From a virus: a DNA stretch of 29,793 nucleotides. How positions within the stretch are numbered: position 1 is the first letter of the stretch; each line of letters opens with the position of its first letter. Both the position numbers and the translations under genes were made by a program. The notes under the pieces were generated by a model. That model was not told the DNA's origin, did not search any database, and saw nothing but the letters and a program-made list of their open reading frames with translations. Shown in pieces: positions 20,287-25,097 of this stretch. Location of the stretch: IMG/VR virus record IMGVR_UViG_3300031785_000035, positions 1 through 29,793 of that record. The stretch is one strand, 5' to 3'.

Positions 20287-21411
20287 TTAGAATGCAGATG
20301 GTGCTGTTGCGCCAACATACAATTCTACAGCAGCAGCAGGGTTTAAGTAGTCTGCTCCCATAGCCATGCGACCTAAGATCACATCACCTTGGTATACAAC
20401 AGACACATCTCCTGATGTTACCTGTACTTGAGGACCTATAGCCTCAACAACTCCAGCAGCTTCTTTCTGGAAGATAAGTCCACAAGACTTAGCTCCTACT
20501 TCAGCAGCTTGACCGTAGTCGTTCTTGATACCAGTCTGAGAACCATTAGCATTCTCTAGTGCTGGACCAATGTGAGAACCAAGATTAGTTGGTGCTGTCT
20601 TACCTGTAGTTCCGCCGTAAGCTGTACCATACTTGCCAAGGAAAGGAATATTCATTGACTTGTAGATCTGGATTCCAGCGATTTCTACAACGCCATTACC
20701 TGACTGTAATGCTGTACCTTGAACGTCTCTGTTGATTAGTCCATTGTTACCAGCTTCAGTGATAAGTGCGTAGTACTGTCTTGGGTTTAGAACAGCCATT
20801 CTTCCAGCAGAGCTAACGCCTTTCTCGTCTAATGCAGCAGCAGCTTCATAGAAAGCATTTACTAATGCAGAAGAACTGAATGCGTCAGAATCGTTTGTTG
20901 ATGTACCAACTCTGATCTGTGTTCCACCGGGCTCTACAAAGTTTGACTTTGTAATTGGAGAAGCAGCCCTAGCTCCTCTTGTGATTGCTCTGAAGATGAG
21001 TCTATCATACTTCTCAGCTAATGCGTATCCAATCTTCTTGGAAATTTCTCCTCTCAACTCGAAGTGTGCGAGTGTTTCGTCTAGCTCATATACGAATGCA
21101 CTAGAAATTAGGAGCTCGTCGCATGTAATTGTTTTTTCTGCGACTGGAGGTGCGCCGTCACTGTTACCTAAGATGCTGTTACCGGGAGTATGGAACTCAG
21201 CAGTTGTACGTCCAGTATAAATGAACTGTAAACTCTTTCCGTTCTTAAGTGTTCTCTTCATCACCATGTCACGAGCGATTGTCTCGTGCTGGAATCCTTT
21301 GAACATTTCTCCTGAGAACAATTTAAGGTAGAGTGCACGGGAGTCACCTGTAGAGTTTGACTGACCTTGGCGTGTTAGCGAGGTTGTCAAATCTGAACTC
21401 TGGTGAGCCAT
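20287..21411 (-). CDS. Major capsid protein (T7 gp10-like)
   Basis: A 374-residue protein with HK97-fold podoviral capsid hallmarks: N-terminal MAHQSSDLTTSLTRQGQSNS, LYLKLFSGEMFKGFQHETIARDMVMKRTLKNGKSLQF, G-R-T-T-A-E-F-H-T-P-G, and a long spine helix DRLIFRAITRGARAASP. T7 gp10A is 345 residues. It follows scaffold in order, although the host-gene cassette is inserted between them. It is preceded by a structured 307-base leader and followed by a strong terminator, so it can be expressed as its own unit. I see no sign of the T7 gp10B frameshift. Only a weak ribosome binding site (AAGATA) precedes the ATG. Confidence 0.93.
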   Translation of the reverse strand: MAHQSSDLTTSLTRQGQSNSTGDSRALYLKLFSGEMFKGFQHETIARDMVMKRTLKNGKSLQFIYTGRTTAEFHTPGNSILGNSDGAPPVAEKTITCDELLISSAFVYELDETLAHFELRGEISKKIGYALAEKYDRLIFRAITRGARAASPITKSNFVEPGGTQIRVGTSTNDSDAFSSSALVNAFYEAAAALDEKGVSSAGRMAVLNPRQYYALITEAGNNGLINRDVQGTALQSGNGVVEIAGIQIYKSMNIPFLGKYGTAYGGTTGKTAPTNLGSHIGPALENANGSQTGIKNDYGQAAEVGAKSCGLIFQKEAAGVVEAIGPQVQVTSGDVSVVYQGDVILGRMAMGADYLNPAAAVELYVGATAPSAF

Positions 21412-21465
21412 GATTTATCTTAAATGTAAGGGTATTATGTATCGTCTTCTAGCCTAGAATGTTGT

Positions 21466-21500
21466 CAGTCTTAATTGGTCTAACGTGAGACTGGCACGTT
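21466..21500 (-). promoter_or_regulatory. Possible H-type RNA pseudoknot in capsid leader
   Basis: AACGTG (21500-21495) can pair with CACGTT (21487-21482). The loop between them contains CAGTCT (21493-21488), which is exactly complementary to AGACTG at 21471-21466. Both stems are six perfect pairs in the interleaved order of an H-type pseudoknot. A competing GTCT/AGAC hairpin is also possible. It lies 55 bases before the capsid start and could control translation or protect the RNA 5' end; function is inference. Confidence 0.45.
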
Positions 21501-21524
21501 TTGTGGTCTTTTCCCACCGTCGAC

Positions 21525-21558
21525 GGCTTAAAGGTGTCCTCCGCAGAGGGCTTTAGCC
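21525..21558 (-). promoter_or_regulatory. Two-level stem-loop in capsid leader
   Basis: An outer stem GGCT/AGCC plus CTTT/AAAG with one bulged base encloses an inner CCTC/GAGG hairpin with a 4-base loop. Immediately downstream (21526-21517) lies the perfect palindrome CCGTCGACGG. No T-run follows, so it is not a terminator. The role is unknown; candidates are RNA stability, a processing site or a phage polymerase promoter element. Confidence 0.4.
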
Positions 21559-21566
21559 AAATTGAG

Positions 21567-21590
21567 TAGGGAGGATTTGCACCTCCCCTA
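21567..21590 (-). promoter_or_regulatory. GC-rich hairpin after the 17-codon ORF
   Basis: GGGAGG (21587-21582) and CCTCCC (21574-21569) pair around the loop TGCAAAT, with two outer A-T pairs across a bulged base. It begins 4 bases after the stop of the short ORF. It superficially resembles a tRNA T-arm but has no acceptor or anticodon arm. It could act with the riboswitch as an expression platform or as an RNA-stabilising element. Confidence 0.45.
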
Positions 21591-21594
21591 TGAT

Positions 21595-21648
21595 CTACTT
21601 GATTACTCTTGTGTAAGACACGCCACGATATACGAAAGTAACTTTCAT
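21595..21648 (-). CDS. 17-residue peptide downstream of the riboswitch
   Basis: ATG at 21648, stop TAG at 21597-21595; the peptide is MKVTFVYRGVSYTRVIK. A clear ribosome binding site, GGAG at 21658-21655, lies 6 bases before the start and is better than those of most genes here. Short ORFs of about this size, with a Y-R-G motif, follow Downstream-peptide RNAs in marine picocyanobacteria. Peptide function is unknown. The YRG-x-x-Y core recurs, as I remember it, which suggests the peptide itself matters. The ORF is far too short for routine gene callers. Confidence 0.7.
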   Translation of the reverse strand: MKVTFVYRGVSYTRVIK

Positions 21649-21671
21649 CGCTATCTCCATATACCTAGACC

Positions 21672-21715
21672 CCGTTCCATGCCTAGGATTCATGCGTCCC
21701 GGTTGGGATGAACGG
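21672..21715 (-). promoter_or_regulatory. Glutamine-II (Downstream-peptide) riboswitch candidate
   Basis: On the minus strand, P1 is CCGTTC (21715-21710) pairing with GAACGG (21677-21672). Inside, TCCC-AACC-GGGA forms P2, followed by the core CGCATG and a short linker to GGAACGG. The order CGTTCATCC ... GGGACGCATG ... GGAACGG matches what I know of the glnA/Downstream-peptide RNA group, proven glutamine aptamers. It starts 4 bases after the stop of the upstream oxygenase gene and is followed by the short ORF the family is named for. Glutamine binding would report nitrogen sufficiency; likely control is of translation of the peptide and perhaps of capsid. Recognised by eye, not by covariance search. 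Confidence 0.8.
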
Positions 21716-21718
21716 ACG

Positions 21719-22294
21719 TTAAGTGTCTATTTTTATATTGAAAGAAATAGAAATCCTATCTTCGTTAGATTGGTTAGGTAGGACTCCATGTTTTAAGTGT
21801 GCTGGAAATATTAATAGTAATCCTTTTATAGGTTTAATAAAATTTTGAACATATTGATTATGTTGTTCCCTAGCTGCGTTAGTATATGTAACTAACTCAG
21901 TATGCGAAACAAAACTCTGGGGGTTCCCAAACGAAATATGTCCTGAATTTTCTGGAACATCTATATAAAAAACTCCTGACAAATGACTATTTGGATGGTC
22001 GTGGACCATGTTATAGCTTTGAGGACCGTTAATATTTATCCAATAATTTACAATATCTAACCTTGAATTAAAAGAATTACTGATAGTTTCATTAAATATT
22101 TTATACAAACTATCTGAAATTAAAGTCTTTTTTCGTTGATAACCTAATGACTGCCATCCTCCTACATTGCTTAAGACATTACCTACAGGGTCTGCTTGTC
22201 TCGCCTTTAAACAATAAGGTTTGATTCGTTCATCAACATCTGTTTCTATTATGTGTATTAAAGTTGGAAACAAATATTCAGCATTATACTTCAT
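21719..22294 (-). CDS. 2OG-Fe(II) oxygenase-like protein (third of cassette)
   Basis: From the ATG at 22294 it has 191 residues (MKYNAEYLFPTLIHIIETDV); a GTG frame to 22336 is less likely. It follows the pattern of a putative 2OG-Fe(II) oxygenase family (TIGR02466 type): N-Y-W-I-N-I-N-G (83-90), H98-D-H100-P-N-S-H-L-S-G-V-F-Y-I, a G-H-I-S-F strand, GLLLIFPAHLKHGVLPN with H169, and R180 (DRISISFN). These would be the iron and 2-oxoglutarate ligands. Substrate unknown. It is immediately followed by the glutamine-II riboswitch candidate, a suggestive pairing because 2-oxoglutarate and glutamine are opposite nitrogen signals in cyanobacteria; that link is inference. Confidence 0.8.
   Translation of the reverse strand: MKYNAEYLFPTLIHIIETDVDERIKPYCLKARQADPVGNVLSNVGGWQSLGYQRKKTLISDSLYKIFNETISNSFNSRLDIVNYWININGPQSYNMVHDHPNSHLSGVFYIDVPENSGHISFGNPQSFVSHTELVTYTNAAREQHNQYVQNFIKPIKGLLLIFPAHLKHGVLPNQSNEDRISISFNIKIDT
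21732..21737 (-). promoter_or_regulatory. Candidate -10 box upstream of the riboswitch
   Basis: TATAAA on the minus strand (21737-21732), inside the 3' end of the oxygenase gene, in an A/T-rich run. A start about 7 bases downstream would put the RNA 5' end about 10 bases before riboswitch stem P1. There is no convincing -35 (GATAGG at 17-base spacing), which is common for cyanobacterial and phage promoters. Weak evidence on its own. Confidence 0.3.
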
Positions 22295-22353
22295 GGTGGT
22301 GTACAGGTGGACGTGGCTGCCAGTGTCGGGTGACACCGGAGATGATAAAGATA

Positions 22354-22473
22354 TTAGTTATCAGAGTTATCAGAGTCAGAAAGTTCTTTATCAGTTTCTT
22401 TCTTTTCTTCTTCTTTATTACAAGGTTCAAAGCTAGTAATACTCGCTCTCATTTTATCTGATTGATGCTTCAT
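22354..22473 (-). CDS. 39-residue acidic-tailed peptide coupled to psbA
   Basis: ORF starting [20 protein letters not shown] and ending in a charged, Asp/Ser-rich tail ([19 protein letters not shown]). Its ATG overlaps the psbA stop in an ATGA arrangement, so ribosomes finishing D1 could re-initiate on it. The stop is followed by a 59-base gap to the third oxygenase start. There is no signal peptide or membrane helix and one Cys. I do not recognise it. The tight coupling is the main reason to call it; it could also be chance in an A-rich spacer. Confidence 0.5.
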
Positions 22474-23549
22474 CCTATTGATGGAGCTGATAGTGCAACC
22501 TGAGTAGCCTCGGCTGAAGCTAGATCAAGTGGGAAGTTGTGAGCGTTACGCTCGTGCATTACTTCCATACCTAAACTTTGTCTGTTTAATACGTCAGCCC
22601 AAGTAGGAATTACTTTACCATTAGCATCAACTACTGATTGGTTAAAGTTGAAACCATTAAGATTGAAAGCCATAGTACTGATTCCCATGGAGGTAAGCCA
22701 TATGCCAACCACGGGGAAAGCACCAAGAAAGAAATGTAAAGCACGAGAATTATTGAAAGAAGCATATTGAAATATAAGTCTACCAAAGTATCCGTGTGCA
22801 GCTACGATGTTATAAGTCTCGCCTTCCTGACCAAACTTATACCCGTAGTTCTGTGATTCAGTTTCCGTGGTCTCCCGAATGATTGAGGAAGTAACAAGGC
22901 TTCCGTGCATAGCAGCAAACAAAGCACCACCAAATACCCCTGCAACGCCGAGCATATGGAATGGGTGCATAAGAATGTTGTGTTCTGCTTGGAAGACAAA
23001 CATGAAGTTGAATGTTCCACTGATTCCTAAAGGCATACCGTCAGAGAATGAACCCTGACCAAATGGATAAACTAAGAATACAGCTAGAGCTGCTGACAAT
23101 GGAGCTGTGTATGCCACAAATATCCATGGTCTCATACCTAGTCTGTATGATAGTTCCCACTGTCTACCAGCGTATGCTGCTACTCCTATTAAGAAGTGAA
23201 AGACAATGAGTTGATATGGTCCGCCGTTGTATAACCACTCGTCTAAAGTGCCAGCTTCCCAGATCGGGTAAAAGTGCAATCCTATTGCGTTGGAGCTAGG
23301 GACTACTGCTCCAGATATAATATTGTTCCCGTACATTAACGAGCCGGAAACTGGCTCACGTATGCCATCTATGTCTACAGGCGGTGCTGCAACAAAGGCG
23401 ATTATGAAACATGTGGTAGCAGTTAGTAACGCTGGAATCATTAGCACACCAAACCAGCCTACATATAGACGGTTGTTTGTGCTAGTAACCCAGTTACAAA
23501 ACTTTTCCCAGTTGGTAGTAGTGTCTCTTTGTAGTGAGATTGCTGCCAT
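22470..23549 (-). CDS. psbA: Photosystem II D1 protein
   Basis: A 359-residue D1 that keeps standard numbering throughout. It carries Y161 (YZ), D170, H190, H198, H215, S264, H272, H332, E333, D342 and A344, so manganese cluster, quinone, iron and chlorophyll ligands are all present, and the C-terminal extension is cleavable after A344. Residue 130 is Gln, the low-light D1:1 type. There is no intron, frameshift or truncation. Phage-made D1 replaces photodamaged host D1 in the thylakoid membrane, keeping energy supply during infection. It starts 4 bases after the upstream oxygenase stop, so there is no separate 5' leader (no room for a photoRC RNA). Confidence 0.98.
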
Positions 23550-23553
23550 TTGA

Positions 23554-24189
23554 TTAATTCTTGTATGATGTTTTGTTTTCTATGTTAAACGCATAGGATA
23601 TCCTGAGATTATCATGGACACTTCTAGAACGTCTAACTAAATGTGATAAGTATGATGGAAATAATACTACATCTCCCTCTTTTATATTGAGGTAGTTAGG
23701 AAAGGTATGACTTCTTAGTGCATCGCACTGAGCTGCAAACTCAATTCCTTTAGCATTACATCTATCTAAATCTTTAGTAAAAGGATTTACAAAGGTTGCT
23801 GGATAGTCGTTAGTATCATCAAGTTGTAAATAATAGATACCTGAAATTATAGATGGGAAATGTTCATGCTGTTCTATATACATAGTCGAGTCATGTACAT
23901 TAAACCATCCATCAATTTCTATCTCAAATTCTATAGGATAACCCTGTAGATAGTCAAGATACTCGTGAACAAGTTTTTTAAACTGTTCATCCCATACAGT
24001 TAATCCAGTATCATTTGAAAATGATGTCCATGTATGTTCCAGTTTAGCCCAAGGAGCTGCTTGATTAGGTGCCTCTAATTTCATTTGAGTTAACAGAGGC
24101 ACAAACTTTTCCTTATATTCTTTATGCCTTTCTACTTGTGCAATGACAATAGGAGTAGGAAACAATAATTCTAATCGGGGGGTGGTCAT
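23554..24189 (-). CDS. 2OG-Fe(II) oxygenase-like protein (second of cassette)
   Basis: A 211-residue protein ([20 protein letters not shown]) with the same plan as the gene at 21719: D-G-W-F-N-V-H (93-99), H108-E-H110[11 protein letters not shown], a [14 protein letters not shown] segment with H183, and R196 ([10 protein letters not shown]). It is therefore likely to fold as a double-stranded beta-helix oxygenase. The two cassette proteins are clearly related in architecture but not close copies. It begins in a TAATG overlap with the 45-residue gene and ends 4 bases before psbA. The reaction substrate cannot be inferred. Confidence 0.75.
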
Positions 24190-24357: not shown

Positions 24358-24564
24358 TTAGAATACGCCGGGGATAATCTGACCAGTGGTGACATAGGCA
24401 CCAAGAGCAGCAACAAAGCCAAGCATCGCTGCCCAGCCGTTAAAACGTTCTGCTTCATGTGTAAAGATTGGGTTTGTGTTGTGGTGTGACATTTTAATTA
24501 ATTGAATAGGTGGTTCGTAAGCATACTCGTTCTCGAGTAGCGTGTCTAAGTCTTTTGTTTTCAT
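24358..24564 (-). CDS. hli: High-light-inducible protein (Hli, one-helix Cab-like)
   Basis: Carries the full Hli signature E39-R-F-N42-G43-W-A-A-M47-L-G49-F (chlorophyll-binding ExxNGxxAMxGF), a single helix GFVAALGAYVTT and the terminal T-G-Q-I-I-P-G. Such proteins bind chlorophyll and carotenoid in the thylakoid, protecting photosystem II and newly made D1 during stress. Length is 68 residues from the ATG at 24564, whose ATGA overlaps the upstream oxygenase stop; an internal ATG at 24492 would give 44 residues, also a known size. Coupling favours the longer form. It works logically with psbA a kilobase downstream. Confidence 0.95.
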   Translation of the reverse strand: MKTKDLDTLLENEYAYEPPIQLIKMSHHNTNPIFTHEAERFNGWAAMLGFVAALGAYVTTGQIIPGVF

Positions 24565-25097
24565 AGTGTATCGAGATCAGTAATCCACAGGTTTCCAGCT
24601 ACTACAAATCTCTTAGCATTGGTTTCATTAGGTAACACTTCATGCCATACATAAGATGGAAAGATAATTAAATCTCCTTTATCTTGTTTAGGTGTATAAG
24701 TGTTACCGGTTCTATCTAGAAAAACGAAAGGGTTATCTTCTGTAGGTCTTAGAAAGTGAACCCAAGAGAGTTGACCAAAAGCATTTATATCACCTCTGGC
24801 ATGATGGTGGCAATGGTGTCCAATATTTTTTTTATAATACTGTGACCAATAATCATAGCTGTATCTACAAGTTGTATATACACCTAGTTGTTTCACCACG
24901 CCTTCCATAATTTCTGAATATTGTTGATTCCAAATTTTATCAGGTCGTTGATACATACTGAAGAAGTAAGAGGTCAACAAAGGGTTGGTTTCTATTACCT
25001 CTTCAAGTAATTTTTGTTTCAACTTACTGATAACTTGGTCAATTTCTTCTTCTGGAAATTTAGTATTTTTATAAAACCAATGTGGTGGTTTAAACAT
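24561..25097 (-). CDS. Putative 2OG-Fe(II) oxygenase (first of cassette)
   Basis: A 178-residue protein. A His-rich stretch H94-H95-C-H97-H98-H99-A-R-G-D103 precedes LSWVHFLRP; then comes GDLIIFPSYVWHEVLPNETNAKRFVVAGNLW with H152 and R163 in the positions of the distal iron ligand and 2-oxoglutarate-binding Arg. The proximal ligand pair is less canonical than in the other members; the HHCHHH cluster makes assignment uncertain. It starts in a TAATG overlap with scaffold, so it is cotranscribed with virion genes. The call rests on the C-terminal half motif. Confidence 0.6.
   Translation of the reverse strand: MFKPPHWFYKNTKFPEEEIDQVISKLKQKLLEEVIETNPLLTSYFFSMYQRPDKIWNQQYSEIMEGVVKQLGVYTTCRYSYDYWSQYYKKNIGHHCHHHARGDINAFGQLSWVHFLRPTEDNPFVFLDRTGNTYTPKQDKGDLIIFPSYVWHEVLPNETNAKRFVVAGNLWITDLDTL

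Follow-up and report, generated by a model that had tools for sequence, protein, structure and literature searches.

The window analyzed here, a 29,793-base virus record taken as a whole, has its genes arranged as in T7-like cyanophages and carries a glutamine riboswitch upstream of its major capsid gene, which raises the question of which gene this riboswitch controls. A preliminary description of the locus had proposed that the riboswitch directly controls the capsid gene, so that virion output tracks cellular glutamine. Genes on the minus strand run in the order portal, scaffold, several small genes, psbA, 2OG-Fe(II) oxygenase, capsid (20287 to 21411, downstream of a leader), and tail genes. 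The capsid protein is most similar to that of S-TIP37 among isolated marine cyanopodoviruses (84% identity, with 81% for P-SSP7 and 75% for P-GSP1), and by blastn the riboswitch region matches P-GSP1 (90%), P-SSP2/P-SSP3 and P-SSP7 (77%), and others in part. The gene directly upstream of the aptamer (21719 to 22336, minus strand) does encode a 2OG-Fe(II) oxygenase (PF13759, E of 3.4e-25; phrog_81), as had been described, but the further suggestion that this enzyme links the locus to nitrogen signaling is unsupported, since dependence on 2-oxoglutarate as a co-substrate does not in itself indicate nitrogen sensing; P-SSP7, P-GSP1, and S-TIP37 have another gene or none at this position. Two more PF13759 oxygenase genes lie on the minus strand at 23554 to 24189 and 24561 to 25097, making three in all between scaffold and capsid.

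A cmscan search of the window against all of Rfam gives a single match, to the glutamine-II riboswitch (RF01704), on the minus strand at 21717 to 21663. It covers the full model (positions 1 to 60 of 60) and scores 50.4 bits (E of 1.3e-9 over the whole window), where the gathering cut-off is 33 bits, which bears out the glutamine-II riboswitch previously placed, with correct coordinates, at 21595 to 21715. In the numbering of the glutamine-II crystal structure, from which the pseudoknot and ligand-site residues are also taken (PMC6698751), the window retains C1 G2 U3 U4 C5 (21714 to 21710), C17 G18 C19 (21696 to 21694), and A33 and G35 G36 A37 A38 C39 G40 G41 G42 (21680 to 21671). The pseudoknot CGUUC/GGAACG (21714 to 21710 with 21677 to 21673), the C19:G41 pair (21694 and 21672), and the conserved linking strand CGCA are all present. 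The helix names of the preliminary description depart from the crystal nomenclature: what it calls "P1" (CCGTTC/GAACGG) corresponds to the crystallographic pseudoknot helix, and what it calls "P2" (TCCC-AACC-GGGA) to the P1 hairpin, UCCC-AACC-GGGA at 21697 to 21708 (minus strand) in the RF01704 alignment, whose loop can hold a whole open reading frame (ORF) in relatives. Ligand-site residues are kept across diverged phages, most of which have one copy of the aptamer. Judged by its sequence, the phage aptamer would bind L-glutamine.

Directly downstream of the aptamer, where Downstream-peptide RNAs have a short ORF, the window has a 17-amino-acid ORF, MKVTFVYRGVSYTRVIK (21595 to 21648, minus strand), encoding a YRGxxY peptide of the Downstream-peptide/Yfr6 kind. 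Its Shine-Dalgarno sequence, GGAG (21658 to 21655, minus strand), sits 6 nucleotides (nt) ahead of the ATG at 21648, exactly as had been noted, and an alternative in-frame ATG at 21660 would give a 21-amino-acid peptide. YRG ORFs likewise follow the riboswitches of relatives and of those hosts in which the ORF could be resolved; in phage loci in which the aptamer core was found they are 13 to 42 amino acids long, except for an 84-amino-acid call in one locus (L092). The window peptide has no Pfam match to DUF4278 (PF14105), and a longer phage homologue scores 21.6 bits against this family, whose curated cut-off is 25.3. Among 11 close 17-amino-acid ORFs, variability at the third codon position does not exceed that at the first and second, so this close set provides no independent evidence of coding. 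Based on the aptamer and the ORF together, riboswitch and peptide in the window are confirmed as belonging to a known class, here in a variant carried by a phage.

The same cassette is widespread in related phages and in their hosts. Of 17 records searched in full (the window and 16 phage records), 14 have a single RF01704 match above cut-off and none of 14 control genomes has one, which indicates that the match is not due to chance; among 19 capsid loci taken from phage records, 15 exceed the cut-off. The whole-record search finds no match in S-B28 or Syn5, and the match in S-SBP1 is weak and partial. In most relatives, P-SSP7 included, the cassette lies between psbA and capsid. Of the 12 cyanobacterial genomes searched, 10 contain RF01704 in 1 to 5 copies each. 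The host ORFs that a script could resolve after these matches usually have YRG motifs, and in several host copies an intrinsic terminator directly follows the peptide stop. The occurrence in cyanobacterial genomes is in line with the earlier proposal that the phage captured the riboswitch from a host, which is the most likely origin; the cassette probably derives from a host gene of the Yfr6/Downstream-peptide kind.

The aptamer 5' strand, together with the immediately preceding bases, is able to base pair with the region ahead of the peptide start codon, including the Shine-Dalgarno sequence, and is predicted to do so when ligand free. Over 142 distinct phage-locus pairs this duplex, which would sequester the ribosome-binding site (anti-RBS pairing), has a mean of -7.00 kcal/mol, compared with -5.62 (standard deviation, 0.13) for partners exchanged between loci, a test in which shared ancestry remains, and -4.08 when letters are shuffled. 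The paired sequences differ by lineage while their place is kept (e.g., UUCGUAC/GUACGAA, and pairs of the CUAGUA/UACUAG type in L385 and L392 to L394). Folded as a single sequence, the aptamer-RBS region shows no unusual stability (z of -0.28). Glutamine-II riboswitches have been reported to act as ON switches near a start codon (PMC6698751). Anti-RBS pairing would be needed if the peptide were under a translational ON switch, and we infer that it agrees with this reported behavior.

Between the peptide and the capsid gene lies a second structured RNA, which we designate R1 (21501 to 21560, minus strand; 64.4 bits in the window). It consists of a long stem with a UNCG-type hairpin, the palindrome GUCGAC, and a hairpin GUGG/CCAC. 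A covariance model finds R1 once in each of the 73 capsid loci scanned, with or without the riboswitch, although many of these loci helped to build the model and match it by construction; in a mostly independent set of loci, obtained by the CACCUCAGAGUCGGA scan described below, it is found at E of 0.01 or better in 76 of the 79 searched. In 14 of the 17 records searched whole it occurs once, ahead of capsid, and the genomes searched whole contain no second copy elsewhere. Syn5, S-TIP28, and SS120-1 give no significant score despite a layout that is similar by eye and were not counted. R1 was not found in 12 cyanobacterial genomes, a search for which the hosts provide no positive control. In the alignment of 68 sequences, 98.9% of cells are paired, and 14 of the 18 pairs have changed on both sides. 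The structure, palindrome included, has a covariation score of 0.364 compared with 0.103 for shuffled alignments, and slid controls collapse. Since single-sequence folds of leader and aptamer are no more stable than shuffles, the structural claims for both rest on comparison.

The palindrome inside R1 (GUCGAC, GUCUAGAC, or GUCAUGAC) covaries without leaving room for a loop. A second near-palindrome, TTCTAGGCTAGAA, lies ahead of the capsid start (21447 to 21459, minus strand), where relatives have perfect palindromes of varied sequence. In the interval between R1 and the capsid start, examined in L001 to L096, a perfect palindrome of at least 10 nt is present in 78% of 72 distinct leaders compared with 13% after shuffling, and there are 41 different palindromes. 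One possible explanation for these is an intermolecular RNA duplex. Apart from RF01704, the region from 20900 to 22500 has no Rfam match up to an E of 1 (4,227 models, Rfam 15).

Immediately ahead of R1, the window has a tRNA-like structure (21565 to 21599, minus strand) made up of an acceptor-like stem, AGUAG (21599 to 21595)/CUACU (21569 to 21565), and a T-arm, GGAGG-UGCAAAU-CCUCC (21586 to 21570). A T-arm with T-loop and an acceptor-like stem are features of tRNA-like structures generally; unlike a tRNA, the window structure has no anticodon arm, there is no complete cloverleaf, and neither ARAGORN nor Rfam finds a tRNA gene in the window. The R1 element that follows it matches no Rfam family. 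Among 92 loci, 48 have a T-arm with a tRNA-type T-loop in this slot, mostly with an acceptor-like stem, 42 have instead a hairpin with the loop CACCUCAGAGUCGGA, and 2 have neither. Acceptor-like stems form 5.5 bp with their own upstream strand compared with 4.27 bp with swapped strands (maximum of 5.0 in 500 swaps). In three loci a real tRNA ends immediately ahead of R1 (tRNA-Gly in L007 and tRNA-Leu in L056 and L057). In L056, a match to abiF RNA (RF03085; 2761 to 2797, 47.8 bits) lies just ahead of the tRNA-Leu in the capsid leader.

The CACCUCAGAGUCGGA hairpin, whose 15-base loop is invariant, replaces the tRNA-like structure in about half of capsid leaders (L016, L033, L041, and L101 to L218) and is absent from the window. 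When viral contigs were scanned for the 15-base loop without regard to capsid, nearly all copies lay approximately 120 to 220 nt upstream of a capsid gene. The simplest reading of these comparisons is that the slot before R1 holds a boundary or cleavage signal that would separate the capsid mRNA from upstream genes.

With these elements in place, the proposal that the riboswitch controls the capsid can be examined against its evidence. In the window, 252 nt separate the end of the riboswitch from the capsid start, which lies downstream on the same strand, and since a search for intrinsic terminators between the peptide and the capsid gene was negative, a single transcript could carry both. In the 81 capsid loci that have enough upstream sequence to be tested, with counts backed by Rfam scans, the cassette adjoins capsid (within 500 nt) in 49; it is more than 500 nt upstream in 8, including those of P-SSP6 and the NATL phages, in which genes intervene, and it is absent in 24. 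The cassette is thus optional and mobile relative to capsid, linkage of riboswitch to capsid is not constant across relatives, and on this presence and absence we rejected the inference of capsid control from linkage. The constant partner of the riboswitch across loci is the peptide, and it is the ribosome-binding region of the peptide that the predicted expression platform fits; the host copies that terminate right after the peptide also speak against capsid control. The peptide stop is separated from the capsid ATG by 183 nt containing the tRNA-like structure and the capsid-specific RNA, a distance over which a translational switch is not expected to reach, and the capsid has a conserved leader of its own. 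Direct control of the capsid is therefore very unlikely.

The riboswitch might instead act on the capsid indirectly, if ribosomes translating the peptide unfolded the tRNA-like element and so set the amount of a separate capsid mRNA. The window peptide does end inside this structure, with its stop codon in the acceptor-like strand, and the covariation of acceptor stems across relatives and the real tRNAs that end directly ahead of the capsid leader fit such coupling. Yet the slot is filled even where the cassette is absent, and the many loci with the CACCUCAGAGUCGGA hairpin have no tRNA-like element to unfold, and we consider this mechanism unlikely. It could also be supposed that the aptamer is a decayed passenger, retained from the host without function: the phage peptide has 17 amino acids compared with 33 to 65 in most resolved hosts, and some phages lack the cassette. 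The joint retention of ligand-site residues, anti-RBS pairing, and the YRG motif across diverged phages makes this highly improbable. We conclude, with a probability of roughly 78%, that the cassette is a translational ON switch captured from a host and controlling the peptide, that capsid is not the regulated gene, and that capsid is expressed from its own leader RNA. In the absence of glutamine, the aptamer 5' strand would pair with the ribosome-binding region of the peptide and keep the peptide off; when glutamine is present, this strand would be drawn into the pseudoknot, freeing the ribosome-binding site and turning the peptide, presumably a functional product, on. The structured capsid leader would be set apart from the cassette by the tRNA-like element, which is probably a cleavage or boundary signal.

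In some relatives the aptamer appears to hold a gene of its own. Six loci whose aptamers looked broken (L019, L068, L079, L080, L084, and L093, which is S-SBP1) have a P1 loop containing an ORF of 54 to 60 amino acids; in S-SBP1 this ORF is at L093:2521-2683, and the nested arrangement is also seen in L329 to L421. A search with the nested-ORF protein family gives 80 loci, 78 of which have aptamer halves on both sides of the ORF; in the remaining 2, no 3' half was detected in the short stretch available past the ORF. Overall, the arrangement is present in 110 loci (ORFs of 53 to 60 amino acids) with 29 distinct P1 flanks. The start codon is in or just beside P1 and the stop is by the linking strand, directly after CGCA in 101 of the 110 instances. 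Variability is highest at the third codon position (0.375, versus 0.146 and 0.105 at the other two). Pairing over the first four P1 positions is 3.66 compared with 3.27 for swapped partners (maximum of 3.55), which is above all 2,000 swaps, and P1 helices reach 13 pairs in the 60-amino-acid subfamily. Distant relatives of the nested ORF (phrog_628) occur in T4-like cyanophages at 26 to 35% identity. The window aptamer has no nested ORF.

From the positions of the nested start and stop codons, it is predicted that glutamine would shut off the nested ORF and turn on the downstream peptide, and that ribosomes translating the nested ORF would disrupt the aptamer. An extended scheme for related cyanopodoviruses, in which one aptamer controls two ORFs in opposite directions and a tRNA mimic cuts the whole unit away, leaving a capsid mRNA that starts with a new RNA family, is tentative, and as a whole we think it somewhat doubtful.

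The phage copy resembles the known Downstream-peptide RNA (RF01704; PMC2864571, PMC6698751) in its consensus, pseudoknot, conserved residues, short ORF, and marine cyanobacterial setting. It differs in being carried by a podovirus between photosynthesis and capsid genes, in having a shorter peptide and no terminator after it, and in that the P1 loop of phage relatives can contain an ORF. In Prochlorococcus MED4 and SS120, Yfr6 is a host RNA that encodes a 33-amino-acid peptide; the level of the RNA drops under nitrogen depletion (PMC1242208, PMC2518516), and its 5' region contains the same glutamine-II aptamer (PMC2864571). Whereas Yfr6 is a stand-alone RNA of approximately 244 nt, the 17-amino-acid phage ORF runs into a tRNA-like element. 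Phage-borne glutamine riboswitches, such as that of the window phage, have also been reported in the marine myophages Melnitz and Mosig and in T4-like cyanophages (PMC9004378, PMC9602691). The Melnitz element is of the glnA type and is located at a tmRNA gene, unlike the podovirus cassette, and the T4-like cyanophages are mentioned without gene context; neither report describes a podovirus psbA-capsid cassette. The literature searched yielded no account of the capsid leader, of the tRNA-like element, or of the nested ORF, and relative to this literature and Rfam 15 the capsid-leader RNA and the nested ORF appear to be new.

Glutamine control of the capsid is an attractive claim that is unsupported and is now corrected. 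The alternative, which can be tested, is that these phages carry a host nitrogen-sensing peptide switch. R1, conserved at the capsid leader in almost every marine T7-like cyanophage examined, seems to be an RNA family not yet described, and a gene nested inside a riboswitch aptamer would be an unusual regulatory design.
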